Of a stretch of DNA of 19,710 nucleotides, positions 366 through 18,708 are shown piece after piece. Origin of the DNA: an uncultured Lachnospiraceae bacterium (GTDB lineage: Bacteria; Bacillota; Clostridia; Lachnospirales; Lachnospiraceae); contig CANQEB010000013.1 in NCBI GenBank assembly GCA_947594085.1, positions 1-19,710 on the forward strand, given 5' to 3'. The notes beneath the pieces are model-generated. The model saw only the letters and a list, made by a program, of their open reading frames with translations. It ran no database searches and was not told the origin of the DNA. Made by a program: the position numbers and the translations under genes. Position 1 is the stretch's first letter, and each line of letters starts with the position of its first letter.

Positions 366-384
366 AACGCTCTCTCCCTCCCTT

Positions 385-3570: not shown

Positions 3571-3642
3571 TCTCTACCTCCGCAATCTGTATGATCTTGT
3601 TATCATTCACGGCTAATGTCATTAATCCTAATGGTTCCGGAC

Positions 3643-3716
3643 GCCGCAGAAGACAGGACGTCTCCGGGCGGACGCCCCTATAGGTTCTTCCCGGAGACGT
3701 CCTGCTCTCTTGCGGC
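3643..3716 (-). other. Long perfect hairpin between yesL and the binding-protein gene
   Basis: Arms 3654-3668 and 3690-3704 are exact reverse complements over 15 bases, with a 21-base loop. A second 6-bp arm pair (3643-3648 with 3711-3716) encloses them across a short imperfect joint (GAAGA opposite CTCTCT) that can also partly pair. On neither strand is the stem followed by a run of T, so it does not read as a classical intrinsic terminator. It lies in the 193-base gap between the yesL stop and the binding-protein start. A role as an RNA-processing or stability element that sets the ratio of binding protein to enzyme is inference; a repeated extragenic palindrome is an alternative. Confidence 0.75.
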
Positions 3717-3763
3717 TGAAAACTAAATGCCATTGATTCACACCATGAATGGAGTTTTTCTAC

Positions 3764-4414: not shown

Positions 4415-4427
4415 GCATCTCCCCCGT

Positions 4428-6008
4428 TCACTCCCGAATCGGGTAGCTGCGAAGATCCGGCAGCTCGTCCAACGTAATCACCACGTCACTATCGTACGCC
4501 TTTTGCAGCATCGGGATCTCCGTGTACTGTTCACTGTAGGCAAATATGCCCGTGTTCTTCGCCACAAATTCGCCCTCCCAAGTACAGAAGAATCCCCACA
4601 TCGAACCGTCGCGAACGGCAAGCTCCGGATCAAAAATACAGCCGTTCTCCGACATGACAACCATCTTGCGCGCATCCGTATAGTGAATCGCCTGCAGATA
4701 CTTGTCTGTCTGCGGAGTGTAGACATGCTCGCCGGGATAAAGATCCTCGCCGATGATATCCACGTACTCGTCGCCCGGGTACCAATCGGCGTCCTGTCCG
4801 TTCCAAACCCAAATCAGATTGTTCAGCCCATACTCATTCGTCAACTTGTCATACAGCAAAATGTAGAGCTTCTTATATGCGTCCGCACCGGACGCGCCCC
4901 ACCAGAACCAACCGCCGCTTGCCTCGTGGAGTGGCCGCCACAGAATCGGCACATCCGCCTCCTGCAAAATCTGAAGCTGCTTCGCGATCGCGTCGATGTC
5001 CTCCATCAGCAGCTGATAACCTTCTTCGTCCTCCCCGTTCATGATCGCCGCAAGGTCTATATCCGTGCTGTCCGCGTAGAAGCCGCGATACCATTCCTTC
5101 GTCAGATATTTCTCAGGCGGATTCCAGTGCCAGCAAAAAGTGACAATCCCGCCATTTTCCCAGAAATTGATCGCGTACTCCGTGGATCTCGGGGTACTGC
5201 CGTTCGCCACGCGCGACGGGGAGTACTCGATGAAATCCAGTCCGAGGATCGCCGGCTCCTTCTCCGTCTCACGCTTGATGACCGTAAACTCCTTGCCGTA
5301 CTGACCACTGCTCGAATACTGGCCAGAGATGATATTCTTTCCGTAATTGTCCGCCAGATAACTCATCAGACGCCTGGCGCTCTCACTCGCGTTCGGATTG
5401 CACAGAGACGCCGAGACTTGGTAGATCGACTCATCCAGAGACTCCGACTCCTGCACGATCAATTTGTCCAAACAGATCCACCCCCAAAATTTTGAGATTG
5501 ACACTTCATGCTCTCCCGCGGAAAGATACGCCCGCGCGAGCACCGAATCGGTAAAAGAATCATCGAAAACGCTGACTGTTCCTAGATTCTCGCCGTCCAC
5601 ATTTACATAGTTCTCTTTGTAGCCGCCCTGTGCGGCACTGATAAAATGGAGATCATAGAAACCATCCTCCGGGGCGGAGATGGTAAAACTGCACGAGTCA
5701 CCGTCATCCTGAAAGCCGGCCGCATAGCCGTCTCCTGAATAACCAGAGAGTTGTGATTCGATATGTACATTACCGGAAAAATCTGCGTTCTCTGCCTCAT
5801 AGACTGTCTCGTCAGCTACAACTGCCTCCGCTGTTTCCTCGGCCGTCGCTTTCTCAGCTGCATCTGTCGTATCCTCGGTCACAGCCTCGACCGCTGCCTT
5901 CTCAGTCATGCTCTCGACTGTCTCCGCCGCGCCAATCGTCACATAGTTTACCGCCAAAACAGCCGCCACGGACGCCACCGCAGTGCAGATTTTTCGTCCT
6001 TTTTTCAT
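4428..6008 (-). CDS. Secreted GH26 beta-mannanase with CBM35-like module
   Basis: Predicted to hydrolyse beta-1,4-mannosidic bonds outside the cell. From the ATG at 6008 the protein has 526 residues: signal segment (about 1-27, MKKGRKI then hydrophobic, ending near GAA); an Ala/Glu/Thr-rich acidic linker (to about 67); a CBM35-like module (about 70-187, YEAENADF and CSFTISAPEDGFYDLHF); then a GH26 catalytic domain (about 200-526). Family hallmarks are WRPLHE, whose Glu362 is the expected acid/base, and VVMSENG, whose Glu454 is the expected nucleophile; HWNPP and IWVWNGQ also fit. An in-frame GTG at 6059 would extend the protein by 17 residues. It was rejected because a GGAG site sits 10 bases before 6008 and 6059 falls at the predicted transcription start. 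Other GH26 activities such as xylanase cannot be excluded. Confidence 0.88.
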   Translation of the reverse strand: MKKGRKICTAVASVAAVLAVNYVTIGAAETVESMTEKAAVEAVTEDTTDAAEKATAEETAEAVVADETVYEAENADFSGNVHIESQLSGYSGDGYAAGFQDDGDSCSFTISAPEDGFYDLHFISAAQGGYKENYVNVDGENLGTVSVFDDSFTDSVLARAYLSAGEHEVSISKFWGWICLDKLIVQESESLDESIYQVSASLCNPNASESARRLMSYLADNYGKNIISGQYSSSGQYGKEFTVIKRETEKEPAILGLDFIEYSPSRVANGSTPRSTEYAINFWENGGIVTFCWHWNPPEKYLTKEWYRGFYADSTDIDLAAIMNGEDEEGYQLLMEDIDAIAKQLQILQEADVPILWRPLHEASGGWFWWGASGADAYKKLYILLYDKLTNEYGLNNLIWVWNGQDADWYPGDEYVDIIGEDLYPGEHVYTPQTDKYLQAIHYTDARKMVVMSENGCIFDPELAVRDGSMWGFFCTWEGEFVAKNTGIFAYSEQYTEIPMLQKAYDSDVVITLDELPDLRSYPIRE

Positions 6009-6065
6009 ATTTCCGGCACTCCTCATTACTTCCTCATCGCTATATGTATATTTATACACGATTTA

Positions 6066-6094
6066 AATATAAACTAATTTTCCGTGTTTTTCAA
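6066..6094 (-). promoter_or_regulatory. Sigma-A promoter of the GH26 operon
   Basis: On the minus strand TTGAAA (6089-6094) is followed after 17 bases by TATATT (6066-6071). Predicted transcription start is near 6059, giving a leader of about 50 bases to the ATG at 6008. The flanks are strongly AT-rich. Position and spacing fit well, but the call rests on consensus alone. Confidence 0.6.
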
Positions 6095-6138
6095 CATGAT
6101 TTTTTATTTTTTATGCTCTTTTTTTATGCAATCCCTAT

Positions 6139-6155
6139 AGAAGCACTGTGCTTCT
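6139..6155. promoter_or_regulatory. 17-bp perfect palindrome, candidate operator or activator site
   Basis: AGAAGCAC-T-GTGCTTCT is an exact inverted repeat with 8-base arms around one central base. Its centre lies about 53 bases upstream of the -35 box of the GH26 operon, a place typical of activator binding. No matching regulator gene is in the window. It is too short and too T-poor downstream to be a terminator. Confidence 0.45.
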
Positions 6156-6246
6156 TTTCCGGTTCTGTTTCGTCATTATTACTATTACAGCTGACGTTTA
6201 GCCGTACAAACAGCCAAAAATACAATCCGGTCCTTGACAAAGCGCC

Positions 6247-6284
6247 AAAAAAACGGGCACAGAGAACAACCTTCCCCATGCCCG
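6247..6284 (-). terminator. Intrinsic terminator after lysC
   Basis: On the minus strand the arms CGGGCA (6279-6284) and TGCCCG (6254-6259) pair, and the stem continues inward with GGGGAA opposite TTCTCT including G-U pairs. Seven T residues (plus-strand A run 6247-6253) follow the stem. It lies about 70 bases beyond the lysC stop and separates the lysine genes from the GH26 operon. Confidence 0.85.
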
Positions 6285-6355
6285 ACATATATTTTTGTTC
6301 ACGTCCTATGATTCTGAACCCGAAAAATAATATCGCAATATACCCGTCTGTCTGA

Positions 6356-7675
6356 TTACAGATGGGTCAGAACAAAGATGTCGTAGATCGCCCGAACGGC
6401 ACGCTCGAAATCGGCATCCTTCACGCCGATGATGATGTTGAGCTCGCTGGAGCCCTGGTCAATCATCTTGACATTAATGTTCGCATGCGAAAGCGCTGCA
6501 AAGATCCGTGCCGCAGTACCTCTCATCGCACGCATTCCGCGTCCCACCACCGCAATCAGCGCCAGGTCCGACTCAAGATCAATCGTGTCCGGCTCCACTG
6601 CCCGATGGAGGCCGGAAATTACGCGCTGTTCCTTCTCCATAAATTCAGATTGATGCACGATCACAGTGAACGTGTCAATCCCAGATGGTGTATGCTCGAA
6701 GGAAATACCGTTCTCCTCAAACACTTGAAGCACTCTGCGGCCGAAGCCAATCTCGGAATTCATCATGTCCTTCTCGATGTTAATTGCGCAGAACCCCTTC
6801 TTGCCTGCGATACCGGTAATCGTATACTTTGGCTGACGGCAAGTGTTTTCCACAATCAATGTACCGGCATCCTGCGGCCGATTTGTGTTCTTGATGTTGA
6901 TCGGAATACCCTCCTTGCGCAGCGGGAAGATCGCATCCGCATGCAGTACGGTCGCTCCCATGTAGGACAACTCACGAAGCTCACGGTAGGTGATCGTCTC
7001 AATCGTCTCAGGATCCTCGACGATATGCGGATCCGTCACGAGGAAGCCGGACACGTCCGTCCAGTTCTCGTACAGATCGGCGTGCACGGCGCGCGCCACG
7101 ATCGAGCCGGTAATATCGGAACCGCCGCGCGAAAATGTCTTGATCCTGCCATCCTCATACGCTCCATAGAATCCCGGTACGACCGCACGCTCTACGGTCT
7201 CAAGTCTTCTGCTGAGAATATCGTTCGTCGTCTCTGGGTCGAACTCGCCATCCTCATCAAAGCGAATCACCTCCGCCGCATCAATGAACTCATATTCCAG
7301 ATACGCTGCCATAATGATACCGTTCAGATATTCTCCTCTGGATGCCGCGTAATCGCTCCCTGCCTGATCGGCAAAAGCCTCTTTCATCTTTGCAAATTCA
7401 TCCTCCAGCGAAAGCTCCAGGCAAAGTCCCTCGATAATCTCCTGATAGCGCTGTGCAATCGCCTCCATCTTCTGCTCCAACGCTTTTTTATCTCCGGCCG
7501 ACTGGTAGCAGTCGTAGAGCATATCCGTCACCTTCGTGTCATCGGAAAATCGCTTGCCCGGCGCGGATGGCACCACGTACCTTCGCCCTTTGTCCGCGTG
7601 AATGATCTCCGCGACTTTGCGGAACTGCTCGGCGTTCGCGAGCGAGCTTCCGCCGAATTTTACTACCTTTTTCAT
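6356..7675 (-). CDS. lysC: Aspartate kinase (aspartokinase)
   Basis: Phosphorylates L-aspartate to 4-phospho-aspartate with ATP, the first step to lysine, diaminopimelate, threonine and methionine; cytoplasmic. The 439 residues show KFGGSSLA (6-13), the VPSAPGKR phrase seen in clostridial aspartokinases (35-42), SRGGSDITGS (182-191), WTDVSGFLVTDP (205-215) and two C-terminal ACT-like domains (about 287-355 and 370-435, with MIDQGSSELNI). The ACT domains suggest feedback control by an end-product amino acid; which one cannot be told from the sequence. The start ATG at 7675 has an AGAGGAG site 6-7 bases upstream. It follows dapB by 68 bases on the same strand and probably shares its promoter. 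An intrinsic terminator ends the unit at 6247-6284. Confidence 0.96.
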   Translation of the reverse strand: MKKVVKFGGSSLANAEQFRKVAEIIHADKGRRYVVPSAPGKRFSDDTKVTDMLYDCYQSAGDKKALEQKMEAIAQRYQEIIEGLCLELSLEDEFAKMKEAFADQAGSDYAASRGEYLNGIIMAAYLEYEFIDAAEVIRFDEDGEFDPETTNDILSRRLETVERAVVPGFYGAYEDGRIKTFSRGGSDITGSIVARAVHADLYENWTDVSGFLVTDPHIVEDPETIETITYRELRELSYMGATVLHADAIFPLRKEGIPINIKNTNRPQDAGTLIVENTCRQPKYTITGIAGKKGFCAINIEKDMMNSEIGFGRRVLQVFEENGISFEHTPSGIDTFTVIVHQSEFMEKEQRVISGLHRAVEPDTIDLESDLALIAVVGRGMRAMRGTAARIFAALSHANINVKMIDQGSSELNIIIGVKDADFERAVRAIYDIFVLTHL

Positions 7676-7743
7676 AATAATCTCCTCTTCTCACGTCACT
7701 ATATGATTCAGTACGCCGCTCGGCAGGCACAGCTTATGATCCT

Positions 7744-8502
7744 CTATAGAGAAATCACGTCCGCCATGTCGTAGATCCCGGCGGGCTTTCCCGCGAGGTA
7801 CTTGGCCGCCTGCACCGCGCCCTTCGCGAACACGCCGCGCGAGTACGCCGTGTGCTTGAACTCGATCACCTCGTCGAAGCCGGCGAAGATCACCTCGTGC
7901 TCCCCGACAATGTTCCCGCCGCGCACCGCGCTGATGCCGATCTCCTTCTTGTCACGGCTCTGTCTGCGGCCACTCCTGTCATAAATATATTCATACTGAT
8001 TGTCCAGCGCCTCGTTCAGGCTGTCCGCCAGCGCGAGCGCCGTCCCGCTCGGCGCGTCTACCTTGCGGTTGTGGTGCTTCTCCACGATCTCCATGTCGAA
8101 ACCGGCCGGAGCCAGCAGCTTCGCCGCCTCCTGCACAAGCTTCAGCAGCATGTTGATCCCAAGCGACATGTTTGCGGACTTCATGACCGCCGTCTTCGCT
8201 CCCGCCGCGCGGATCTGCTCCATCTGCTCCTGCGAGTAGCCGGTCGTGCAGAAGACCGCCGCCACCTTTTTCTCCGTGCAGTACGCAAGCAGGGAATCCA
8301 GTGCGCCCGGCGCGGAAAAATCGATCACGACGTCCGCCGCGACGTCGCAGTCCGCAATGCTCGTAAACACCGGATAGTCCTTATCGCCCCTGTCCTCAAG
8401 GTCGACGCCCGCCACGATCTTCGCGTCCTCGTCCGCCGCGACGATGTCCGTCACCACACGGCCCATGTAGCCGTTGCAGCCGCTCATGATTATTCTTGTC
8501 AT
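7744..8502 (-). CDS. dapB: 4-hydroxy-tetrahydrodipicolinate reductase
   Basis: Reduces the DapA product to tetrahydrodipicolinate with NAD(P)H, on the route to diaminopimelate for cell wall and lysine. The 252-residue length is normal for the family. Motifs: nucleotide-binding GCNGYMGR (8-15), CTTGYS (85-90), MSLGINMLLKL (112-122), and the catalytic and substrate-binding EKHHNRKVDAPSGTA (141-155, His143/His144 and Lys147). The C-terminal GEHEVIFAG and FKHTAYSR are also typical. The start at 8502 is preceded by a modest AGAGGA site. The third positions are markedly GC-rich, unlike the secreted-protein genes just upstream. It is transcribed from its own promoter at 8543-8572 rather than with dapA, which lies about 7 kb away. 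Confidence 0.96.
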   Translation of the reverse strand: MTRIIMSGCNGYMGRVVTDIVAADEDAKIVAGVDLEDRGDKDYPVFTSIADCDVAADVVIDFSAPGALDSLLAYCTEKKVAAVFCTTGYSQEQMEQIRAAGAKTAVMKSANMSLGINMLLKLVQEAAKLLAPAGFDMEIVEKHHNRKVDAPSGTALALADSLNEALDNQYEYIYDRSGRRQSRDKKEIGISAVRGGNIVGEHEVIFAGFDEVIEFKHTAYSRGVFAKGAVQAAKYLAGKPAGIYDMADVISL

Positions 8503-8542
8503 TCTCTCATCCTCTTCCCGATTATTCTATATTGCTCTCGTT

Positions 8543-8572
8543 ACTCTACACTATTTCCTTATATCATGTCAA
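8543..8572 (-). promoter_or_regulatory. Promoter of dapB-lysC
   Basis: On the minus strand a perfect TTGACA (8567-8572) is followed after 18 bases by TAGAGT (8543-8548), four of six matches to the -10 consensus. It lies about 40 bases upstream of the dapB start. I see no lysine riboswitch or T-box in the short leader. The rest of the 8503-8696 gap holds the direct repeat copy described separately. Confidence 0.55.
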
Positions 8573-8602
8573 GTGACAATCTACCTCAGAAACGGCGCAG
8601 GT

Positions 8603-8680
8603 AGTCGCCGCCCCGCCTCTTGCCCCACCCATAAAAACTATATTATAATTTTGGTGGATAATCTTATCCTTTGGCAGAGT
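8603..8680 (+). repeat. Direct repeat copy A: orphan promoter-leader sequence
   Basis: This matches 14764-14837 in the same orientation. Over the ungapped 67-base core (8614-8680 against 14771-14837) I count about 54 identities by eye; a 4-base insertion precedes it, then AGTCGCC in both. It contains TTGCCC (8620-8625), 17 bases, then TTATAA/TATAAT (8643-8649), a good plus-strand sigma-A promoter. The differences cluster in the spacer, while the hexamers and the segment after them (TGGTGGATAAT and CCTTTGGCAGAGT) are kept. There is no plus-strand gene downstream: transcription would run into the 3' end of the 1121-residue minus-strand gene. Confidence 0.85.
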
Positions 8681-8696
8681 CCGTTTCATCAAAAAA

Positions 8697-11600
8697 TCAT
8701 TTATATGAATTCAGCCAGTCTTGCAGAAGCTGACTTGGATTACTCTGGCTGTATAGCAACGCTTGAGTTTCCGGATCCGCCACACCTGTGACTTCAATCC
8801 CCATCGCTCCCTGGAATGCAGATACCGCACTCTCTGTCATTTCGCCGAAATTCCCATATGTATTTGTGTCCAGATACCCTAGTTGGCTGAGCATTTTCTG
8901 AAGAGAGATCACATCGTCCCCTGAGCTTCCTCTGGCCAACTCGGTGTAGGATGAAGCGTCCTGAGAAAATTCATACCGTTCGATTTCAGGGCGGGAAATC
9001 TCCATATATTCCTTCACGATCTCCTGATCTGCAATAATCATAAATTCTTCACGGTAATTTCCCAGACACTTTGCATCATGGGCTTCCAGAAGCTCCTGAT
9101 CAGCCTCATTCTGCAGCACAGCGATCAGAAGATATACCGTATCATCCAAAATTCCTCCGCTGCCGTCGTCAAAATAAATGGGCGTCCACAAATATAAGGT
9201 ACTGTCTGACTCTCTGTAGGAGTCTGCCACAAAGTGAAAAGCCTTCATGGAATCTATCCGCGCTCTGGAGGCATCGACAGGAACAGGCACTTCCGTGTGT
9301 CCTAACGCCTCGATATAATCCTGAACGAGGACTTCCGAAAACTCCATCAGCAGCGAAGCACCTTCTACTACCCCATAATATTCTTCTATTGTCGGCAGAT
9401 AAAATGAGAATGTCTGTACAGCTGAATCCTGTCTCAGATCTTCAGAGGCGCGGTACTGTATAGCATACTGCATAACTTCCGAGAGATCATAGGTCGTCAG
9501 CTTATCGCGAACATTCAGAAAGCTTCTCGATACCAATTCACGTCTTTCCTCAAGCATGTGCATATAGAGCCACATCTCATACAGAGCGGAGATACTTTGC
9601 TCACGGGTAAGCATATGTTTAGGAAAAGGCTTCCCCTCCTCCGCGCGCATAATTCCAAGACGGCGAAGTGCCTCAATTCTTTCCTTTCCCTTTGTACCAG
9701 ATATTTCACTGTTTTCTTCTGCTGTTTCATTCCCGCCGGTTTCCTCTGGCTCATCGCTTTCCGCCTCAGACATGTCCTGGACATTCTCCTCCGACGCGCT
9801 TTCCGCTGTATTCTCCGCTTCTTCTGCTTCACCCAGACCGGTTGTATCCATCCCCAGCAGCGCCAGGCAGTTTATGATCGCCAGCGCCGCATCTTCTCTG
9901 CTGATCAGCCGCTGTCCGGGATCCGGGTCAAAGACATATTCAAGATCTTCTTCGGGAAGAAACCCAAGAGAAACAGCCGCACCGATGGCGGCGTTGACAT
10001 CCTGGTCCTCATAGGACTGCCGGAATTCGGCAGCTTTCTCTCCCGGTATACTTCCCACGGCTTCCTCATATATACCCAGAAGCATTTCACAGAACTCTTC
10101 CAGCGAAATTTCTTTCTGATAGCTTTCTTCCATGATATCTCCGATGATCCCATGCAGGATGCCGCCCTTTACCGTTTCCACCGCCCATTGGGAAATGTCA
10201 CTTTCAGACAGAGATTCCATCACGCTGTCTTCATTAAGGGCAAACGTAGGCTCCAGCTCTTCTGACGTTCCTGGGGTATTCTCCTTGTATAATGTTCCGG
10301 CAGAATTCTCGGAAAAATCCAGATAAAAAATCTCATCCTTTTTCAGCGGGATTTTTCCATACAGATTAACGCCCATTCCAGTATCCTCAGCTTCCCGTCC
10401 GGTCAACACTCCCATTTCTCCGTCCTCTTCGGCACGGATCAGCACTTTATAGCTGTCCAAAAATTCCGGATTCAGAAAAACATATTTCAGGTCATCATAT
10501 GCTCCCACGACGATTCCGTCATTTCTGTATTCTTCCTCATCTCCCGTATGCACAACCGCCAGTTCATTCCCAGCGGCATCCTGTACCGATACCTCCACCG
10601 GGCAGGCAATATATGCTCTCTGATAACCGCTCTCCCGAACCGCGTAAAACTTGTTATAAAAACCCGCGTGCTTCGGATCATTTTTCTGACTCTCATAGAG
10701 AGCAATCTGGTCGGAAGTCATCATAGAATTGATCGAAATGCTAGTCTGGGCGCCGGCGGTTCCCTTCACTCCTGAATTTGGCGCATAATAAGAGCATTCC
10801 ACATCAAAGGTTCCTTTTCTTTTCTGCATGGTCACATTCGTAAGATCCACAAAGAACCGGATCCCATACGTTTTCTTTTCCCCCGGCGCAAGTGTGATTC
10901 CAGGCAGTTCAAACGCTGTTTCCCTCCCCTGCCCGGAGCTTCCGGATGTAAAAGAGATATGCTCGTTCGGCACAACAGTCCCACGGATATTTTCCAACGG
11001 TTCTGCCCCGTCATTTTCCATTGTTACTTCCAGATATACGTATGGCGGATCACATCTGGGAATATTCAGACTCATCATTTCAAGCGTCTCATAGTAAGCG
11101 CTGTTTGGATCTTTCGACTCAAGGAATTTGAAAACCCCGCTCGCTATCTTAATGCCGAAATTCTTCATCGCGGTACCGAACCCCGATCCCAATCCTCCCA
11201 ATCCTTCCAATCCTTCCGCGGCCGAATCCGCGGCTTTCAAGCTGATATCACTGCCTGCTGCCTTCATATAATAAGAGATCAATGCAGACGAATCAAAATA
11301 CATCTCATAAAGCTCCCGTATCGGAAAGCCTGAGGCTCCTTCCATAAGTGCCAGCCAGGCTAATATATTATTCAATTTATTGACCGGCATTTTCAGCTCT
11401 CCGGCCATTTTATGAATAATTTTATCCATTTTTACCATGACCCCTTTGATGCTTCGGCCGTTTCCGCGGCCATTCTCCTTCCGGGTCATATTGACGCCTT
11501 TCTGTGCCTGCGTCTCAAACCAGTCCTCCGCGGCTGTCGTTTTCAACGATACCTTCATAGACGCATCCGAAACGGTAATATGAAACGTTTTCGTAAATTT

Positions 11601-12062
11601 ATCGATTCCTCTCCTGTCGGTGTAATTCAGCCCCAGCTTCGTCAAAAATGTCCTGAAAGAAACTGTAACCGTAGCAGTTCCCGCTTTTTTTGCATAAAGC
11701 ACGATCCCCAGGTTCTGCCTGTCTCCCTCTGTCATGTCCGCCTGCATTTCGTACTGACCCTGTTTCGGAAGATGGCTTCCCACCTCAACCACTTCAGGAG
11801 CCGATGAGGCCAAAGATAAGATATCATACGACAGATAATTTGTATTGATCCAGTGAAGCGGAGGAACAACAATCCGTTCTCCGGCCTTCATTGATACTTC
11901 ATAACTGTCCTTGGTGCTGGTGTACTCCCGAAAAATCATATCATCGGTTGTGAAGGCAAATTTTTCCAGCCGTACGGGAACACTTGCTTCCGCGGCAGCA
12001 GGCAGCGCACTTTCAAATATAAGAAGTACCGTCAGCAGCAGACTCAAAAATCGTTTGTTCAT
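8697..12062 (-). CDS. Secreted wall protein: Big2-like, SLH-like repeats and C-terminal peptidoglycan-binding domain
   Basis: No enzymatic function recognised. The 1121 residues run: signal peptide (1-24, ending PAAA); Big2-like segment (about 84-166, SSAPEVVEV and AKKAGTATVTVS); helical part (about 205-330) with a Gly/Leu-rich patch at 284-296; beta-sandwich-like part (about 338-445); three degenerate S-layer-homology-like repeats (about 621-667, 686-737 and 792-836, with DISQWAVETVKGGILHGI, ISREDAALAIINCL and RRLGIM...LTREQSISALYEM); an acidic linker between the second and third (744-788); a module shared with the next gene (about 936-1035); and a PG_binding_1-type domain (about 1040-1106, GSSGDDVISLQKMLSQLGYL). 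It should be exported and held in the wall. It starts 29 bases after the upstream gene, whose promoter it probably shares. The start at 12062 has an AAAGGA site. Confidence 0.85.
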   Translation of the reverse strand: MNKRFLSLLLTVLLIFESALPAAAEASVPVRLEKFAFTTDDMIFREYTSTKDSYEVSMKAGERIVVPPLHWINTNYLSYDILSLASSAPEVVEVGSHLPKQGQYEMQADMTEGDRQNLGIVLYAKKAGTATVTVSFRTFLTKLGLNYTDRRGIDKFTKTFHITVSDASMKVSLKTTAAEDWFETQAQKGVNMTRKENGRGNGRSIKGVMVKMDKIIHKMAGELKMPVNKLNNILAWLALMEGASGFPIRELYEMYFDSSALISYYMKAAGSDISLKAADSAAEGLEGLGGLGSGFGTAMKNFGIKIASGVFKFLESKDPNSAYYETLEMMSLNIPRCDPPYVYLEVTMENDGAEPLENIRGTVVPNEHISFTSGSSGQGRETAFELPGITLAPGEKKTYGIRFFVDLTNVTMQKRKGTFDVECSYYAPNSGVKGTAGAQTSISINSMMTSDQIALYESQKNDPKHAGFYNKFYAVRESGYQRAYIACPVEVSVQDAAGNELAVVHTGDEEEYRNDGIVVGAYDDLKYVFLNPEFLDSYKVLIRAEEDGEMGVLTGREAEDTGMGVNLYGKIPLKKDEIFYLDFSENSAGTLYKENTPGTSEELEPTFALNEDSVMESLSESDISQWAVETVKGGILHGIIGDIMEESYQKEISLEEFCEMLLGIYEEAVGSIPGEKAAEFRQSYEDQDVNAAIGAAVSLGFLPEEDLEYVFDPDPGQRLISREDAALAIINCLALLGMDTTGLGEAEEAENTAESASEENVQDMSEAESDEPEETGGNETAEENSEISGTKGKERIEALRRLGIMRAEEGKPFPKHMLTREQSISALYEMWLYMHMLEERRELVSRSFLNVRDKLTTYDLSEVMQYAIQYRASEDLRQDSAVQTFSFYLPTIEEYYGVVEGASLLMEFSEVLVQDYIEALGHTEVPVPVDASRARIDSMKAFHFVADSYRESDSTLYLWTPIYFDDGSGGILDDTVYLLIAVLQNEADQELLEAHDAKCLGNYREEFMIIADQEIVKEYMEISRPEIERYEFSQDASSYTELARGSSGDDVISLQKMLSQLGYLDTNTYGNFGEMTESAVSAFQGAMGIEVTGVADPETQALLYSQSNPSQLLQDWLNSYK

Positions 12063-12091
12063 AGAATCCCATCCTTTCTATCTATGCATTC

Positions 12092-14656
12092 TCATGCACC
12101 CTGCGAAGCCATCCAGCCCAGAAGCCGTTCCTTGTCCTCGGTCTGAGACAGCAGCATCCGCTGAAGATCGGCGTCCGCTGTCCCCGTAGGCTCCAGCCCC
12201 ATAGCCTCCTGATAAGCGCTCACAGCTTCCGTAGTCATCGGACCATAATAGCCGTCCACAGAACTGGTCATATACCCTTTGTCCACCAATGCCGCTTGTA
12301 TCGCGCGTACTGCATCTCCGGTGCTTTCTTCTGTCAATGTCTCATATGTATTTGTATCCTCTGCAATCTGGAACATATTCCCTTCGGAAATCATTCTGCT
12401 CAGGATTTCTCTCACCACGCTCTGATCCGTAATCAGAAGTTTTTCTGTGCGGTAATCTTCATAAACAGGATAATATGCTCTCTGGGAAAGATAATCCTCA
12501 TCTGCTCCAGGACAGATCATATACACGAAAAGATATACCTCATTGTTGTAAATGTGACCGCTGGCATCCTGATAGTACACCGGAAGCCAGTTATAGGCCG
12601 TCCCATCCTCTGTCTCACAAAATCCCTGGGCAAAGTCAAAGCTGTCCAGGCTCAGCCAGCCCGCTCCGAAAAGCTGATCCAGAGTCTCCATGTGAATCGG
12701 CGCCATATCCGTATAATCGCTCATATCGTCGACCTGAAAACTGTATTCCTCATAGATCATCCAGTCCGCTGCGGAACCGAGATCCCGCATATTAAACTCC
12801 ACCTCATCCCGGGAAACATTGGGACAATACACGGAAAAGCTTTCCAACAGCCGGCCTGCCTGACCTTCCTTCCCAAATCGATACTGCATAAAGTCACGGT
12901 CATCATCCGCCTCAACTGTTTCCATACCGTTCAGGCTGGACTGAACCGTCAAGGCAATCTCAGCGCTGTAAACTCCTGCGCCTTCCGGAACGAGAATCGG
13001 ATCCTTTACTTTAAGGTTGAGAGTCTGTTCACTGATTTTCTCCCCCTCTTCCGGCTCTTCCAGAAGCAGAACACGTACCGTATCGGTGCTTTCACCTTTT
13101 TTGACGCGAATGTCGTATTCTTTTCCCGATTCAAATTCCGGCACTGACAGATAATCCGCGTATCCGTACTTAGCAGCAGTTTCGTCAATTGTAAAATCAT
13201 GAGAGCAGACGATCTCCCCATTCTCAGGATCCGCTATTTCCACTGAGGCTGCTCCGGTTTCCCCGCAGAAAGAAAGCATTATTGGAAGTTTATACCCGGA
13301 TTTTCCATATAAGCGCGTGCCGTTTTCAGGAGAAGCAATCTTTGTTCCTCCCGGAATATCCAAAGCCTCCCACTCGTCTGTTCCGCCCTGGACAGGCCGT
13401 TCTTCCTCCTCTTCCTCGCCCTGATCCATTCCGTCCGGGACAACCACCTCAATCGAATATTGTCTGGTCTGACCGCCGCACTCAACCTCCAGGGTATAAG
13501 GGCCATAAGTGCCCGGCGTTTTTGTAAAGTACATTCCTCCCATATTACTGTCTCCAACACCCTGATATTTATATTCAAACGGCTGGCCATTCTGAGCGGT
13601 TCCAAACAGTCGTGCACGGTAGGGCGCGTATTCTCCGATCTCAAAAGCAAACGCCAAAAATCCCCCATTGACATAGGCCATGTAAGAATCATCCTGCTTC
13701 AAATCTTCTATTTTTGTTTCCTCATATTGTGCATTATAGGCAAAGACTTGTATCTCCTTTCCTTCGCCCAAGGGTTTCTGAAGCAAAGAAGTATCTTCAA
13801 AAGTGAACGTTGCTCTGTCTTCTTTTTTACCGTCCGATAAAACCAGCTCATATTTCCTGCCAGGTTCCAGATTCTCTGAAAGCTCCAGTTCTGTACCTAA
13901 ACCACTGTCCGCGCCTTCCTCATTATACGACATATCATCCTGTTCGGACGCAAGGATCTCACCTGTCTGCAAATCGCTCAGCTCAATGGTTGCCACCCCA
14001 TTAAACTGGTGATAATGCCTGAATACCATAAACCTTTCCCCGGGATTTCCCATAACAGTTGATCCGTCTGCAGGACTGGTAATGGAAAGAGAATAATCTG
14101 ACCCATCAGATGTGCTGGCTGCGGCAAACCTGGGCGTTGTCACAAATCCTGTTTCTCCTATTGCCGTCCCATAAGTAATGTCATACTGACAGTCCATAAC
14201 CAGTTCCACCTGATAAGTCAGCACTTCTCCGTTACCAATGATTTCTAGTTGATGAGGACCGTATGTGCCCGGGTTACCGGCAAAATTCAGCATTCCAGTT
14301 CTTCCCCACACTTCATCAAAAATATCATTCCATTCGAATTTTTCTCCATTCTCAGCAATTCCTGACAGTCTGACGCGGTAAGGCTGCCCTTTCACTCGGT
14401 TTTGCAGGGAGAAACAGATGCATCCTGTTTCATCCAGATTCAGTCTATAGTAATCTCCCTGTCGAAAGTTTTCCAAATTTTCTTCTTTCTCCTGTCCGTC
14501 CGGGGAGACTGTATAAACGCACACATTTAATGCTCCTTCCGCTTTTGCCGGGCAGGAAAGCAGCAACATAAAGACAACAGACAGAACCGTCTTCTGTGCA
14601 ACTCCTCCCCAAACATGCCAAATATAGGTTATCGCCCCAGTTCTTCCTTTCTTCAC
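12092..14656 (-). CDS. Exported protein with duplicated two-domain unit and C-terminal peptidoglycan-binding domain
   Basis: Function unknown. From GTG at 14656 the protein has 854 residues: a signal segment (about 23-40, ending LLLSCPAKA); domain A1 (about 43-154); B1 (188-287); A2 (302-407); an acidic DQGEEEEEERP linker; B2 (437-534); a module shared with the next gene (about 670-770); and a PG_binding_1-type domain (772-838, STGDAVRAIQAALVDKGYM). A1 and A2 share PYRxRLxGxAxNG and PGTYGPxxLE; B1 and B2 share SPxxGxxxxG and a GxKYEL/GKEYDI strand. LLSC at 32-35 could be a weak lipobox, otherwise cleavage after AKA is likely. A TTG 78 bases upstream is in frame but lies in the -35 box. The GTG has AAAGGAGG about 6 bases before it, which decides the start. 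Confidence 0.85.
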   Translation of the reverse strand: MKKGRTGAITYIWHVWGGVAQKTVLSVVFMLLLSCPAKAEGALNVCVYTVSPDGQEKEENLENFRQGDYYRLNLDETGCICFSLQNRVKGQPYRVRLSGIAENGEKFEWNDIFDEVWGRTGMLNFAGNPGTYGPHQLEIIGNGEVLTYQVELVMDCQYDITYGTAIGETGFVTTPRFAAASTSDGSDYSLSITSPADGSTVMGNPGERFMVFRHYHQFNGVATIELSDLQTGEILASEQDDMSYNEEGADSGLGTELELSENLEPGRKYELVLSDGKKEDRATFTFEDTSLLQKPLGEGKEIQVFAYNAQYEETKIEDLKQDDSYMAYVNGGFLAFAFEIGEYAPYRARLFGTAQNGQPFEYKYQGVGDSNMGGMYFTKTPGTYGPYTLEVECGGQTRQYSIEVVVPDGMDQGEEEEEERPVQGGTDEWEALDIPGGTKIASPENGTRLYGKSGYKLPIMLSFCGETGAASVEIADPENGEIVCSHDFTIDETAAKYGYADYLSVPEFESGKEYDIRVKKGESTDTVRVLLLEEPEEGEKISEQTLNLKVKDPILVPEGAGVYSAEIALTVQSSLNGMETVEADDDRDFMQYRFGKEGQAGRLLESFSVYCPNVSRDEVEFNMRDLGSAADWMIYEEYSFQVDDMSDYTDMAPIHMETLDQLFGAGWLSLDSFDFAQGFCETEDGTAYNWLPVYYQDASGHIYNNEVYLFVYMICPGADEDYLSQRAYYPVYEDYRTEKLLITDQSVVREILSRMISEGNMFQIAEDTNTYETLTEESTGDAVRAIQAALVDKGYMTSSVDGYYGPMTTEAVSAYQEAMGLEPTGTADADLQRMLLSQTEDKERLLGWMASQGA

Positions 14657-14705
14657 GCTTTTCCTCCTTTTGCACTGACATCCATTAACAAGCCTTACAT
14701 TTTTG

Positions 14706-14734
14706 AGTATAGCACACCGCGCATTTATGCGCAA
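14706..14734 (-). promoter_or_regulatory. Promoter of the two-gene wall-protein operon
   Basis: On the minus strand TTGCGC (14729-14734), 17 bases, then TATACT (14706-14711) preceded by TGC, an extended -10. The spacer region overlaps a GCGCAT-TT-ATGCGC palindrome (14720-14733) that could be an operator. Transcription would begin near 14699, about 43 bases before the GTG at 14656. It is back to back with the plus-strand promoter at 14777. Confidence 0.65.
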
Positions 14735-14763
14735 TTTTAAAAAAGCTTCGAGTTGGCACAGAA

Positions 14764-14837
14764 AGTCGCCCGCCTCTTGACCCCTTTCCCAAAACTATGT
14801 TATAGTTCTGGTGGATAATTTTACCCTTTGGCAGAGT
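14764..14837 (+). repeat. Direct repeat copy B: promoter-leader of the Big2-type gene
   Basis: This is the partner of 8603-8680, same orientation, about 6.16 kb apart. The pair brackets both paralogous wall-protein genes together with the operon promoter. Conserved blocks are AGTCGCC, CGCCTCTTG, AAAACTAT and the 3' half from the -10 region to GGCAGAGT. After 14837 the copies part, although CCGTTT occurs in both if about 12 bases are lost from copy A. Confidence 0.85.
14777..14805 (+). promoter_or_regulatory. Promoter of the Big2-type secreted protein gene
   Basis: TTGACC (14777-14782), 17 bases, then TTATAG (14800-14805; TATAGT one base later also fits). It lies inside direct repeat copy B. 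Predicted start near 14812 puts the conserved TGGATAAT block at the 5' end of the transcript and leaves a leader of about 90 bases. Confidence 0.65.
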
Positions 14838-14865
14838 TCATCTTCTCTGCCGTTTGCATTATCCA
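14812..14865 (+). promoter_or_regulatory. Nested hairpin in the leader of the Big2-type gene
   Basis: TGGATAAT (14812-14819) is the exact reverse complement of ATTATCCA (14858-14865). Inside it GGCAGAG (14830-14836) pairs with CTCTGCC (14845-14851) around an 8-base loop. The outer stem would sit at the very 5' end of the mRNA, where such stems stabilise transcripts. It ends 38 bases before the start codon and leaves the ribosome site free. Copy A keeps the left arms but has lost both right arms. Confidence 0.55.
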
Positions 14866-14903
14866 GATACTCAAGAAGAGAATTTCAAGGAGGATAACAC
14901 TTT

Positions 14904-15602
14904 ATGAAACTGAAAGCCGCAAGAAAACGAATTATTTCACTTTTACTTGCCTCACTCATGCTCATGAGCGTTTTCGGCACACTCACAGCAGAAGCCGCGA
15001 ATAAAGGACCCAAACTTGCGTCCACTTCCGGCACTTATTATCTGAAAAAAAGCGCAAAACAAAAAGACGTTTGGGTAGAGGTAGAGTCATCATACCCAGA
15101 TTCGATAGTCTACAGTCCATCTCAAATTGAGAACCTGAAGAGCAGCAATCCGAAAGTCGCAACGGTCTCTGCAAAATTTTATTCAGAAGTATATCTTATT
15201 ATCAAGCCGATAAAGACCGGAACGACTACAATAAGTTGCACTGTAAATGGCAAAAATCTCAAATATAAACTAACCGTCTGTAAATACGTGAACCCATTCA
15301 AAAAGCTCATGCTCGGTGATCGAAATTATGCATCTTCTTTCAACCAAAAAGAAACCAGTAAGAAAATCAAAAATCCGGGCGGCCAACGGACGCTGAATGT
15401 AACGCCGAAAAAAAGTTGGAAGCTGACAAAGATCGTTGGAACATATTGGGATCCTGATGCTGATGATGGATTTGGTGATTATTTTGATAAAAATATCAAA
15501 AACGGCGAGAATCTTGATCTGAGTAAAAAGTGGTGGTGGTTCAAATTTACGTTTAAGAATAAGAAAGGCACCAAAGAAGAATTCACTCTGTATTTTAACT
15601 AA
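14904..15602 (+). CDS. Secreted Big2-domain protein
   Basis: Function not recognised beyond the domain. The 232 residues hold a signal peptide (1-31, basic start, hydrophobic core, ending AEA); a Big2-like immunoglobulin-type domain (about 38-127, with LKSSNPKVATVSA and IKTGTTTISCTVNGK); and a lysine- and tryptophan-rich C-terminal part (about 130-232) with VGTYWDPDADDGFGDYFD, an Asp-rich loop near 183-192 that resembles but does not exactly match a DxDxDG calcium loop. Big2 domains usually mediate surface display or adhesion. The start at 14904 has AAGGAGG 10 bases upstream. Codon use is AT-richer than in dapA or dapB. It is transcribed away from the two wall-protein genes from a back-to-back promoter region and is the only plus-strand gene between typA and the left edge. 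Confidence 0.85.
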   Translation: MKLKAARKRIISLLLASLMLMSVFGTLTAEAANKGPKLASTSGTYYLKKSAKQKDVWVEVESSYPDSIVYSPSQIENLKSSNPKVATVSAKFYSEVYLIIKPIKTGTTTISCTVNGKNLKYKLTVCKYVNPFKKLMLGDRNYASSFNQKETSKKIKNPGGQRTLNVTPKKSWKLTKIVGTYWDPDADDGFGDYFDKNIKNGENLDLSKKWWWFKFTFKNKKGTKEEFTLYFN

Positions 15603-15614
15603 AGAGCTATGCGT

Positions 15615-15664
15615 GAAAGAAGCCGGATACTCTGCACAAACCGCAGGGCCGTCCGGCTTCTTTT
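15615..15664. terminator. Shared bidirectional terminator between the Big2-type gene and dapA
   Basis: AAAGAAGCCGGA (15616-15627) pairs exactly with TCCGGCTTCTTT (15652-15663). Within the loop CTGC and GCAG can form a small inner stem. On the plus strand the stem ends in TTCTTTTC, on the minus strand in CTTCTTTC. It sits 13 bases after the stop at 15602 and 55 bases beyond the dapA stop at 15719, so it can end both converging transcripts. Confidence 0.8.
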
Positions 15665-15718
15665 CTCACTGTTCTGTATCTGGTATAAGCCGCAGAGGAC
15701 TTTGTGCGCTCCCCATCA

Positions 15719-16603
15719 TCAGAGAATCCCGTAGTTCTTCATTGCCGTCTCCAGGCGCTTCGCGTTTGCTTCCTCCATCTCGGAGAGCGGGCTGCGCAGC
15801 GGACCGACATTCCGGCCCTGCAGATTCAACGCCTTCTTCACCGGAATCGGATTGACCTCGCAGAACAGCGCGTCAATCAGCTCGATCGCCGCAAGCTGCA
15901 GCTCGCAGCTCTTCTTCACATCGCCCGCAAGATAGGAAGCCACGATCTCGTGCGTCTGCCTCGGAGCAACATTCGAGAGCACCGAGATCACGCCGCAGCC
16001 GCCGAGCGACAGGATTGGCACGATCTGGTCGTCGTTTCCGGAGTACAGCTCAATCTCATCTCCCGCGAGGCTCATCAGCTTCGCCACCTGCGAGATATTG
16101 CCGGACGCTTCCTTCACGCCCACGATATTCTTGACATTCTTCACAAGCCAGGCAGCCGTCTCCGGCAGAATGTTGCAGCCGGTCCTGCTCGGCACATTGT
16201 ACAGGATGATCGGCAGGCTCACCGACTCCGCGATCTTCGTGTAATGCTGCTTCAGGCCGTTCTGCGTCGCCTTGTTGTAGTATGGCGTCACGAGCAGCAG
16301 CGCGTCCGCGCCGTCCTTCTCCGCCTCCTGTGAGAGCTGGATCGCGGTCTGCGTGCAGTTTGAGCCCGTACCGGCGATCACCGGAATGCGCTTCGCCACT
16401 TTCTCGATCGCGAAACGGATCACCGCTGAGTGCTCCTCCATCGTCAGTGTCGCGGACTCGCCTGTCGTCCCACAGATGATGATCGCGTCCGTCCCCTCCG
16501 CGATCTGGTACTCCAGAAGCTCCGCGAGCGCGTCGTAATTTACCTCTCCGTTCTCATACATCGGCGTGACGATCGCCACGCCCGCCCCCTTAAAAATAGC
16601 CAT
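15719..16603 (-). CDS. dapA: 4-hydroxy-tetrahydrodipicolinate synthase
   Basis: Condenses pyruvate with aspartate semialdehyde, the committed step to diaminopimelate and lysine; cytoplasmic. The 294-residue (beta/alpha)8 protein matches family length. Visible residues: GTTGES (45-50), PYYN with Tyr108/Tyr109, Tyr135 in LYNVPSRTG, Arg140, and the Schiff-base Lys164 in VGVKEASG. NPIPVKKAL near 251 is also typical. An ATG at 16609 is only 2 bases from the AAAGGAGG site; the ATG at 16603 is 8 bases away and gives the usual MAIFKGAGVAIVTP beginning, so I place the start there. The gene is very GC-rich in third positions. It stands alone behind a lysine riboswitch and ends at a shared terminator, so it is not co-transcribed with dapB. 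Confidence 0.96.
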   Translation of the reverse strand: MAIFKGAGVAIVTPMYENGEVNYDALAELLEYQIAEGTDAIIICGTTGESATLTMEEHSAVIRFAIEKVAKRIPVIAGTGSNCTQTAIQLSQEAEKDGADALLLVTPYYNKATQNGLKQHYTKIAESVSLPIILYNVPSRTGCNILPETAAWLVKNVKNIVGVKEASGNISQVAKLMSLAGDEIELYSGNDDQIVPILSLGGCGVISVLSNVAPRQTHEIVASYLAGDVKKSCELQLAAIELIDALFCEVNPIPVKKALNLQGRNVGPLRSPLSEMEEANAKRLETAMKNYGIL

Positions 16604-16730
16604 ATCCATATCCTCCTTTTCCAGTACACATTTCCTGTCAGACAGCCTTTCCGGTTCTGCAGGTCACACCTCAATCTGGGAAGCCCCATGCCGTGCTGCA
16701 GTCGATTCTCCAAAACTTCCCTCAACACAG

Positions 16731-16756
16731 CAAAGGGACTGTCGACAGACAGCCCC
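16731..16756 (-). terminator. Candidate expression-platform hairpin of the lysine riboswitch
   Basis: On the minus strand GGGGCTGTC (16748-16756) pairs with GACAGTCCC (16735-16743), one G-U pair, loop TGTC. Only CTTTG follows, a weak T tract. Just upstream AGAATT and AATTCT can pair, and ACAG can compete for CTGT, so alternative folds exist. About 130 bases then separate it from dapA. Whether it terminates is uncertain. Confidence 0.45.
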
Positions 16757-16782
16757 AAAGAATTAGCAGAATTCTGTTCTCC

Positions 16783-16951
16783 AGATAGCTCTCCATCGCA
16801 TCCCGATGACAGTCATGCGGTTCTTCACCGTATGCCCAAGAAAGCAGTCTCGGAAGCTGCTCCCTTTCGGCGCTCTCCCCTTTCCACGGCTATCCTCTGC
16901 GCCCGAACACATCCGGCCGTGTACTCATGAATCGCGCAACCTCTATCATTT
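16783..16951 (-). promoter_or_regulatory. Lysine riboswitch (L box) upstream of dapA
   Basis: Read on the minus strand, the leader carries L-box landmarks in order: GATAGAGGTTGCGC (from 16947), TGAGTAC, the GAAAGGGGAG block and CGCCGAAAGG (about 16863-16884), GACTGTCATC (about 16804-16813), and GGAGAGCTATC (16784-16794), whose CTATC closes the P1 helix with GATAG. These match the known lysC leader class of Bacillus by pattern, recalled from memory and not searched. Lysine binding is expected to lower dapA expression. It lies between the promoter at 16965 and dapA. The downstream platform is unusual and described separately. Confidence 0.9.
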
Positions 16952-16964
16952 CAAGATTTCTTTC

Positions 16965-16993
16965 ACTATAGCATTATTATGTTGTATTGTCAA
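16965..16993 (-). promoter_or_regulatory. Promoter of the dapA transcript
   Basis: On the minus strand a perfect TTGACA (16988-16993), exactly 17 bases, then TATAGT (16965-16970) preceded by TGC, an extended -10. Predicted start near 16958, immediately before the riboswitch. The leader to the dapA ATG is therefore about 355 bases; this accounts for most of the 475-base gap 16604-17078. Confidence 0.8.
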
Positions 16994-17078
16994 CGGTTTC
17001 TGACTCCACAAGGACCAGAGACATCTCCCAGCAGGCTATTTTGGACTTCTTATCACTGTTAAAATTTCGTCCTATGTC

Positions 17079-17588
17079 CTACAGCACGCCATTCTCCGCG
17101 CGGTATGAAGTCGACAGCTCCGTCACTTCATTGACATACGGCCAGAGCTCCTTGCACTCGCTGGTCCCAGTCAGGTAAAGCTCAGTGCCCTCTCCAACTG
17201 CATCGATCAATCCGCGCAACTCTTCGATCGTCACAATTCCCTTATCCGTCAGCCCAAGAATCTCGTCGAGGATCAGCACATCCGCCTCTTCCGTCACCAG
17301 AACCTTTTTGGCAAAATTCAGGCCATTCTTGATATTGTTGATCTCGTCCTCTTTCTCACGTTCCGTCAGATTCTCATAGTTGGCTGCAAATCTCTGAAAT
17401 CGAAACAGCTTGATCTCCGGCTCCAGACGTTTGAAAAATTCCTGGCTTCCACCGGACTGCTGCTCTTTCAGAAATTGGATCAGCACAACTTCCTTTCCTT
17501 CTGCGGCCGCGCGGACACCTTTTCCAAGTGCCGCTGAAGTCTTCCCCACGCCAGTTCCACAGAAAATATGTATATATCGTCCACTCAT
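17079..17588 (-). CDS. cobO: Cob(I)yrinic acid a,c-diamide / cob(I)alamin adenosyltransferase (CobO/BtuR family)
   Basis: Transfers the adenosyl group of ATP to cobalt in corrinoids to make coenzyme B12 forms; cytoplasmic. The 169 residues contain a P-loop GTGVGKT (11-17) followed by SAALGKGVRAAAEG, then VVLIQFLK, and VLILDEILGLTDKG with the Walker-B-like acidic residues. The C-terminus (EVTELSTSYRAENGVL) lacks the HPF...GIEF-type tail of the proteobacterial enzymes, as I recall for clostridial relatives. Of several in-frame ATGs (17609, 17600, 17588), the one at 17588 gives MSGRYIHIFCGTG and has an AGG/AGGTGG site just upstream. No other cobalamin gene is in the window, so it may serve corrinoid salvage. 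Confidence 0.85.
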   Translation of the reverse strand: MSGRYIHIFCGTGVGKTSAALGKGVRAAAEGKEVVLIQFLKEQQSGGSQEFFKRLEPEIKLFRFQRFAANYENLTEREKEDEINNIKNGLNFAKKVLVTEEADVLILDEILGLTDKGIVTIEELRGLIDAVGEGTELYLTGTSECKELWPYVNEVTELSTSYRAENGVL

Positions 17589-17701
17589 TGTCCACCTCAT
17601 CACCGCCATAGCCGAAACGGTTCTCGCTTTTTCATGATCACGCTGTAATTACCGTACTCTGCCCGACTATGGCCTTGGTATTTATCTGTAAATGCTTCAT
17701 T

Positions 17702-17730
17702 ATATTACTATATTTTCCCTGAGAATGCAA
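17702..17730 (-). promoter_or_regulatory. Possible promoter of the adenosyltransferase gene
   Basis: On the minus strand TTGCAT (17725-17730), 17 bases, TAATAT (17702-17707), with an overlapping TATAAT at 17699-17704. It is the best match in the AT-rich 226-base gap after the double-OB gene. Weak evidence; no riboswitch of the cobalamin type was recognised here. Confidence 0.4.
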
Positions 17731-17814
17731 TATTATTGTATACATTCGTCAGCTACGTTTGTCCCCAACCGCTCTGTAACCTCTCCGGATGCTGATAGTT
17801 CAATATAGTTAATC

Positions 17815-18441
17815 TCACTCCAAATACTCTAGCTTGCTCACAGACACCTCGTACGCAATACGCTTTTCGGTGGTGTCATCATCCAGTCGCTTCACATATT
17901 CCCTGCTCTGGATCCGTCCCCATACCTGCACATGTCCCCCTACCTCAAAGTTCGATGTGAAACGGGCATTTCGCCCCCAGCAGATACACGGTATATAATC
18001 CGATTTCCCATAAGGACGGTTGACCGCCAGCAACATATCCGCAATCTCCCGGCCAAGCGGAGTTCTTCGGTACACCGGTGTCTTGCAGATATAGCCGTCC
18101 AGAAAAATCTGGTTGCTCTTCACCTTATCGCCGTCTTCCTCCACGAAGCTGATCTCACGCGCAAACACAGAAAGCACCAGCTTGTTCTTCTTCTCCTCGT
18201 GCCTGTTGTACGAACGGAACTGTCCGAAAACTTGTATGTATTCCCCCTCGTAATCCTGTGTGACGTCAATCAGACGCTCTGAAATCATCACCGGTATGAT
18301 ATCGGATGAATCACTCAGCCTCTGAACAGAAATATCCACCATGTAAAACCCTTCCCCGAACACCTCGTGGCTGAAGCCAAAACCGGAAACGATTTTTCCC
18401 ATGATGGATACCTGATTGTTTTCAATGATCTTATCTGTCAT
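17815..18441 (-). CDS. Double-OB single-stranded-DNA-binding-like protein
   Basis: Probably binds single-stranded nucleic acid; the role is inferred from fold similarity. From the ATG at 18441 it has 208 residues in two related halves: the first about 7-100 (VSIMGKIVSGF, EGFYMVDISVQRLS, GEYIQVFGQFRSYN) and the second about 108-205 (FLDGYICKTPVYRRTPLGREIADMLLAV, DYIPCICWGRN, GGHVQVWGRIQSREYVK). The second half has the pattern of SSB/PriB proteins. It lacks the acidic DDDIPF-type tail of replicative SSB, so it is unlikely to be the main one. An upstream in-frame ATG at 18489 was rejected because AAAGGAGA lies 10 bases before 18441. The neighbours do not suggest a pathway. Confidence 0.7.
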   Translation of the reverse strand: MTDKIIENNQVSIMGKIVSGFGFSHEVFGEGFYMVDISVQRLSDSSDIIPVMISERLIDVTQDYEGEYIQVFGQFRSYNRHEEKKNKLVLSVFAREISFVEEDGDKVKSNQIFLDGYICKTPVYRRTPLGREIADMLLAVNRPYGKSDYIPCICWGRNARFTSNFEVGGHVQVWGRIQSREYVKRLDDDTTEKRIAYEVSVSKLEYLE

Positions 18442-18564
18442 AAAGCACTGTTCTCCTTTCTTCCTACGAAGTATCTTCTCGTATTCCAACTAGTTCAATT
18501 TATGCGCAAAGGTCTCCGAATATGTCTATTTTTTTCCAAAAAATAAAAAAATGTGTAACGGCAC

Positions 18565-18592
18565 TTGTAATCTCCCCAAATTGTGATAAACT
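18565..18592 (+). promoter_or_regulatory. Possible typA promoter and structured leader
   Basis: TTGTAA (18565-18570), 16 bases, TAAACT (18587-18592). The leader of about 110 bases to typA contains AGCAaCGAG (18621-18629) facing CTCGcTGCT (18671-18679), with a small ACAA/TTGT stem inside. No known riboswitch class recognised. The T- and A-rich tract at 18526-18551 lies between this and the divergent double-OB gene. Confidence 0.4.
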
Positions 18593-18708
18593 GGACAAGG
18601 TTTGAATTTAATGCCCAAACAGCAACGAGCCCCGTAAACAAGCGTTTTGTGAGGCACCGTATTGGCATGACTCGCTGCTAAACCCGAAAATAAGGAAAGA
18701 GTGAATTT

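Follow-up and report, generated by a model that had tools for sequence, protein, structure and literature searches.

We analyzed a 19,710-nucleotide stretch of DNA (the window) from an uncultured gut Lachnospiraceae bacterium (assembly GCA_947594085.1, contig CANQEB010000013.1, positions 1 to 19,710), in which two copies of a promoter-leader sequence, arranged as direct repeats, flank a two-gene module, M1 and M2, situated between dapA and dapB. The dapA gene (15719-16609, minus strand; family match) lies downstream of a lysine riboswitch (16778-16953, minus strand; Rfam match), and dapB (7744-8502, minus strand; also a family match) is followed by a putative lysC for aspartokinase (6356-7675, minus strand), which was read from its translation and has the same place beside dapB in relatives. 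The distance between dapA and dapB is 7.2 kb, and this space holds g232 on the plus strand and M2 and M1 on the minus strand. M1 (8697-12062) encodes a 1,121-residue protein with a signal peptide recognized by eye and a C-terminal PG_binding_1 domain, and M2 (12092-14656) encodes one of 854 residues, with a GTG start at 14656 and a ribosome-binding site assigned by eye, which ends in the same domain. The two products are 31 to 32% alike across about 250 C-terminal residues, and M1 and M2 are probable wall-protein genes. The 232-residue protein encoded by g232 (14904-15602) has a signal peptide, again by eye, and a weak Big_2 (Ig-like) match that fell short of the curated cut-off; nothing in Pfam matched it at that cut-off. 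The G+C content is 48% in both M1 and M2, 39% in g232, 60% in dapA, 62% in dapB, and 54% in lysC, and an ordinary neighboring stretch (16954-18700) has 46%. A putative M2-M1 promoter on the minus strand (14706..14734; TTGCGC and TATACT with a 17-nt spacer and an extended TGC) was found by eye; the promoter scan did not list it, and its -35 hexamer matches the consensus at 3 of 6 positions. The spacer of this site contains a palindrome, GCGCAT-2-ATGCGC (14719-14732), which by eye is operator-like.

The two copies of the repeat span 8594-8680 (copy 1) and 14755-14837 (copy 2), both on the plus strand, with an offset of 6,157 bp. In a gapped alignment of these intervals, 71 of the 80 aligned bases were identical and 10 columns were gaps; the local score of the two copies was 83, and none of 2,000 dinucleotide shuffles scored as high as the repeat alignment. 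A gap-free core of 47 nt (8634-8680 and 14791-14837) is 89% identical. The initial annotation had described two promoter-leader repeats in the same orientation from a hand count of 54 identical bases out of 67, and this is confirmed by the 52 of 65 that we obtained without gaps from CCTCTTG to AGAGT. Its statement that the pair encloses two paralogous genes and their promoter also held, as M1, M2, and the putative M2 promoter lie between the copies and no further gene was recognized there. Since the longest identical run common to both copies is 13 bp, an assembly chimera at the repeat is unlikely.

Both copies carry sigma-A-type hexamers at an equal spacing of 18 nt, within the range of 16 to 18 nt, and each matches the -35 and -10 consensus at 10 of 12 positions. 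In copy 1 these are TTGCCC (8620-8625) and TATAAT (8644-8649), followed by a leader that ends at 8680; in copy 2 they are TTGACC (14777-14782) and an extended -10, TATAGT (14801-14806). Copy 2 is the likely promoter and leader of g232, a presumed secreted-protein gene. Copy 1 is stranded: no same-strand gene was recognized downstream of it, and it faces the 3' end of M1 in antisense orientation. Across the region, 13 sigma-A-like sites were counted against 9.0 ± 3.2 expected, which is weak evidence by itself, and given this near-chance frequency the promoter reading depends chiefly on the location ahead of g232 and on conservation in the sister genome G005. The best-kept section of the repeat is the leader part, with 27 of 30 bases identical in the ungapped comparison, and not the promoter part (25 of 35), in which each hexamer differs by 1 base between the copies. 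The earlier claim that the boxes and the first transcribed bases had been conserved as the spacer drifted is therefore imprecise as regards the boxes. The leader opens with GGATA-4-TAYCC in both copies (8656-8669 and 14813-14826) and in G005, and within the copy 1 leader there is an inverted repeat, GGATAA-2-TTATCC. Copy 2 is followed by a hairpin, GGCAGAG/CTCTGCC (14829-14852), the 3' arm of which is missing after copy 1; this hairpin of the g232 leader is terminator-like and a possible attenuator. At the gathering threshold no Rfam family was found in the repeat, the sole match in the window being the lysine riboswitch upstream of dapA.

We then determined how widely the repeat occurs. With up to 3 mismatches allowed, the leader pattern gave two matches in the bacterium's own genome (G000), which is 71% complete and so leaves room for more copies, and none in 59 relatives. 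A promoter pattern derived from the three known copies, at the same tolerance, was found twice in G000, once in G005, and in none of the other 45 of the 47 genus genomes; all three matches sit at the dapA-dapB locus. An earlier, narrower promoter pattern had picked up copy 2 alone. A common promoter or leader family was ruled out, as no copies stood before unrelated genes in the 47 genus genomes at up to 3 mismatches. It was this genome-wide copy search that the initial annotation had itself proposed as the way to refute its view of the repeat as a module boundary and not a common leader, and the outcome did not refute that view. The operator-like GGATA-4-TAYCC after the -10 had six matches in 5 of the 47 genomes, three of them at the dapA-dapB locus, and the reversed control had two. 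One of the three matches elsewhere falls within a coding frame (G003), and inspection by eye found no g232-like frame of at least 80 residues within 1.8 kb downstream of any of the three. Given the two matches in the reversed control, no GGATA-4-TAYCC regulon was found in these 47 genomes.

The enclosed genes have few relatives. Matches to M1 were present in 17 of 60 genomes (its own included; 36 of the 60 belong to the genus), nearly all of them confined either to the PG-binding end or to a brief segment near residues 570-740, and a full-length match occurred only in its own genome. The first 600 residues of M1 had a match in 4 of 295 genomes of the order, one being its own and the other three covering 93 to 109 residues. 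For M2, matches were found in 8 of the 47 genus genomes, full length again only in its own, and its first 565 residues were matched in no other genome of the 295. M1 and M2 are therefore like other PG_binding_1 (PF01471) proteins in having the C-terminal domain above the curated cut-off, but differ from them in N-terminal parts that are without a full-length relative in the other 294 order genomes. The two appear to be near-orphan, lineage-specific genes, opposite in orientation to g232. A phage or plasmid origin of the module was rejected, as searches with M1 in viral contigs (six exact peptide patterns), phages, and plasmids and with M2 in plasmids were negative.

The same interval was compared across the genus. 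A dapB gene is present in 46 of the 47 genomes (no match in G009), and in 43 of the 45 dapB-bearing genomes other than our own the gap between dapA and dapB is 8 to 482 bp; the other two are G012, where the contig begins 228 bases before dapB, and G005, where the locus lies on two contigs. None of those 43 gaps contained a promoter-like match on the tested strand, and their local scores did not exceed 20, compared with 83 for the window copies. In the window, the promoter scan listed a promoter-like site for dapB (TTGACA-18-TAGAGT, 8543..8572, minus strand), which is divergent from copy 1 with 48 bp from -35 to -35, and a similar sequence precedes dapB in G069 and G068. In these two genomes, the dapB of which is 97% identical to ours, the TTGACA comes directly after the dapA stop and thereby marks the insertion site. 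On these comparisons, the entire block, with g232 as part of it, is an insert between dapA and dapB, restricted to its own lineage among the genomes searched.

The one relative with a similar arrangement is G005. Its contig C7 carries dapA (98% identical), then a g232 homolog oriented as in the window, and then one promoter copy; the homolog is 54 to 57% identical to g232 (54% by local BLAST). Contig C35 carries the dapB upstream region and dapB (99%). The end of C7 and the start of C35 are the two ends of one multicopy insertion sequence (IS), and outside it both contigs have the 9-base flank CTGCCTCGG; owing to the shared IS ends and matching flanks, C7 and C35 very likely adjoin, joined by one IS. 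The ends of this IS, CAACTGACAAT...TTTACTCCA, recur next to different flanks in G000, G005, and G016 (13 matches, one of them with 3 mismatches, in 3 of 7 genomes; 12 of the 13 were inspected with their flanks), and a 9-base flank match of this type, TCCGGTCTG, is present on two G016 contigs. The element has a 9-bp target duplication and one copy beside dapB in G005, and it is also found on G000 contigs C2, C39, C182, and C201, the C2 match being weak (3 mismatches). G005 thus appears to have a single g232 promoter beside dapB, with the IS separating the two, and this genome, which is 96% complete, gave no match to M1 or M2. The initial annotation had suggested comparing the locus in sister strains for presence, absence, or excision between the copies. 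In G005 there is one known promoter copy and no detectable M1 or M2, but this state is not a recent excision product of the window arrangement, because the G005 promoter is without CCTTTGGCAGAGT, which is common to both window copies.

The promoter of G005 is identical to copy 2 at 30 of 35 positions and to copy 1 at 26 of 35. Relative to it, copy 1 is altered at the A of TTGACC (giving TTGCCC) and at the TG of the extended -10, and copy 2 keeps both. When G000 and G005 were compared per 50 columns, the dapA and dapB blocks were 88 to 100% identical apart from the end blocks, whereas g232 and its flanks were strongly diverged, with islands of high identity (96% in the signal-peptide block and 74 to 82% in central blocks), which suggests that evolution or exchange is much faster in the dapA-dapB interval than in the DNA on either side. 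The identity drops abruptly at 15602-15718, by the dapA stop, and at 8587-8600, upstream of dapB. As the G005 promoter of g232 is on the dapB side, where the window has copy 1, M2 and M1 separate g232 from the presumed old position of its promoter. Copy 1 would hold this presumed ancestral position, and copy 2 now precedes g232. Two points had not been noticed in the initial annotation: g232 itself is part of the insert between dapA and dapB, and the left copy is at the g232 promoter position of G005.

Next, we considered mobile elements. The segment 8560-14870 contains 21 inverted pairs of at least 14 bases, none with arms at both module edges, and neither Pfam nor NCBIfam gave a transposase or recombinase match for M1, M2, or g232. 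The flanks of the module, about 85 bp long with 71 of 80 bases identical, are not a short exact target duplication of the IS or transposon type. An IS or transposon insertion with target duplication was rejected on these long diverged flanks, the lack of terminal repeats of at least 14 bases, and the lack of a transposase in the three genes. The multicopy IS of the G005 interval, with its 9-bp target duplication, resembles the module in having the dapB promoter-like site on one side and the g232 promoter on the other, but it is an independent event of the sister genome, and its ends are not at the window module (no match on contig C13). An excision cassette operating by homologous recombination is unsupported, long near-identical direct repeats being absent, and loss of the module by recombination between the flanking copies, which had been envisaged earlier, is unlikely because the longest shared run is 13 bp. 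It is also extremely unlikely that the module is a site-specific cassette mobilized by a recombinase acting in trans, with the leader repeat of about 30 bp as its attachment-type site. The leader is indeed the best-conserved part, and copy 1 has its inverted repeat; however, no recombinase was recognized among the window translations (most were not run against a family library), no further site copies occurred in the genomes searched, the homology runs on through the promoter, the copies have drifted, and the database searches with M1 (phages and plasmids) and M2 (plasmids) were negative. Elsewhere in the window, at 3291-3491, tandem repeats of 18/36 bp give an acidic repeat of the ETESETEALSEA type at the N terminus of the protein encoded at 385-3570 on the minus strand.

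A tandem duplication of the promoter together with g232, the left g232 being later replaced by M2 and M1, had been offered in the initial annotation. Several g232-like paralogs per genome, two of them about 1.2 kb apart on G005 contig C41, are in line with it, yet we regard it as unlikely. It needs two events, and there is neither a g232 remnant to the right of copy 1 nor homology to the g232 3' flank to the left of copy 2. In seven comparisons of the flanks beyond the repeat, in each of which at least 134 of 1,000 shuffles were equally good, the sequence left of copy 2 had no likeness to g232, its 3' flank, or the dapB upstream region, and that right of copy 1 had none to g232, its leader, or the dapA side. 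A lost left gene would thus have gone without a trace. Of the module-boundary proposal, the boundary itself stands, in that the repeat is no common leader, and a sister with one promoter and no module was found; the lost left gene was not borne out.

We consider it probable that the promoter was duplicated in connection with the insertion of M2 and M1, leaving a stranded, partly decayed promoter beside dapB. First, g232 with its own promoter would have entered the dapA-dapB gap, pointing away from dapB, which is the G005 arrangement. In the lineage of the window, M2 and M1 would then have been inserted between the g232 promoter and g232, the same event duplicating a promoter-leader segment of about 85 bp. 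The outer of the two copies (8594-8680) would have remained at dapB without a gene and decayed in the -35 and the extended -10, and would now fire, if at all, antisense into the M1 end, with the inner copy (14755-14837) driving g232. The dapB gene may tolerate the insert, having its own promoter-like sequence. The loss in copy 1 of the A of TTGACC and of the extended -10 TG is what a promoter that no longer serves a gene would be expected to show. The position of the repeat, its rarity, and the single-promoter relative are direct observations; the order of events, insertion in one step, the decay, and all promoter activity are inferred. Duplication-insertion that leaves an orphan promoter is a general kind of genome rearrangement. 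The locus is like it in that a regulatory direct repeat flanks new genes and one copy keeps its gene as the other decays; the difference here is that the repeat of about 85 bp is longer than an IS target duplication.

Several observations weigh against this scenario. The -10 of copy 1 is closer to the consensus than that of copy 2, which is not decay. The promoter part of copy 2 is closer to G005 (30 of 35) than to copy 1 (25 of 35), but the leader argues the opposite way, the copies being alike at 27 of 30 positions and G005 being without the shared leader, so that the promoter part and the leader point to different histories. The copies also diverge more than the dapA and dapB DNA does between G000 and G005 (88 to 100% per 50 columns), and the duplication may predate the split of these genomes, G005 having lost the module; likewise, with g232 only 57% identical between them, exchange may have involved the entire slot. 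Neither insertion machinery nor a known target duplication was seen at the module, and the g232 state is known from a single relative in which the locus is split across two contigs, our own genome being 71% complete. Some of these points would fit a module that, with its two flanking promoters, is older than the G005 split, G005 having lost M1 and M2 when the DNA between the repeats was deleted or the slot was replaced: the promoter copies diverge more than the flanking genes do between genomes, and the copy 2 promoter part is nearer to G005. We nevertheless find this quite improbable, as the G005 promoter, without CCTTTGGCAGAGT, is not a simple hybrid of the window copies, and full-length M2 was detected in none of the 46 remaining genomes of the genus, nor full-length M1 in any of the 35 in which it was sought. 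Very unlikely, in our estimate, is an exchange slot for surface-protein cassettes between dapA and dapB, with the duplicated promoter and leader and its GGATA-4-TAYCC as a reused joint and the stranded copy kept as an antisense or regulatory promoter of M1; if this were true, modules would be gained or lost between the repeat copies.

The locus is best explained by an ordinary, well-resolved duplication-insertion that took place in a lineage-specific slot and left one promoter stranded, which accounts for the odd flanking repeat without a mobile cassette. The likely ancestral promoter position, the gene that belongs to it, and a relative without the module can all be read from the sequence. 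The locus is therefore a readable case of a lineage-specific pair of probable wall-protein genes entering a core amino-acid locus.

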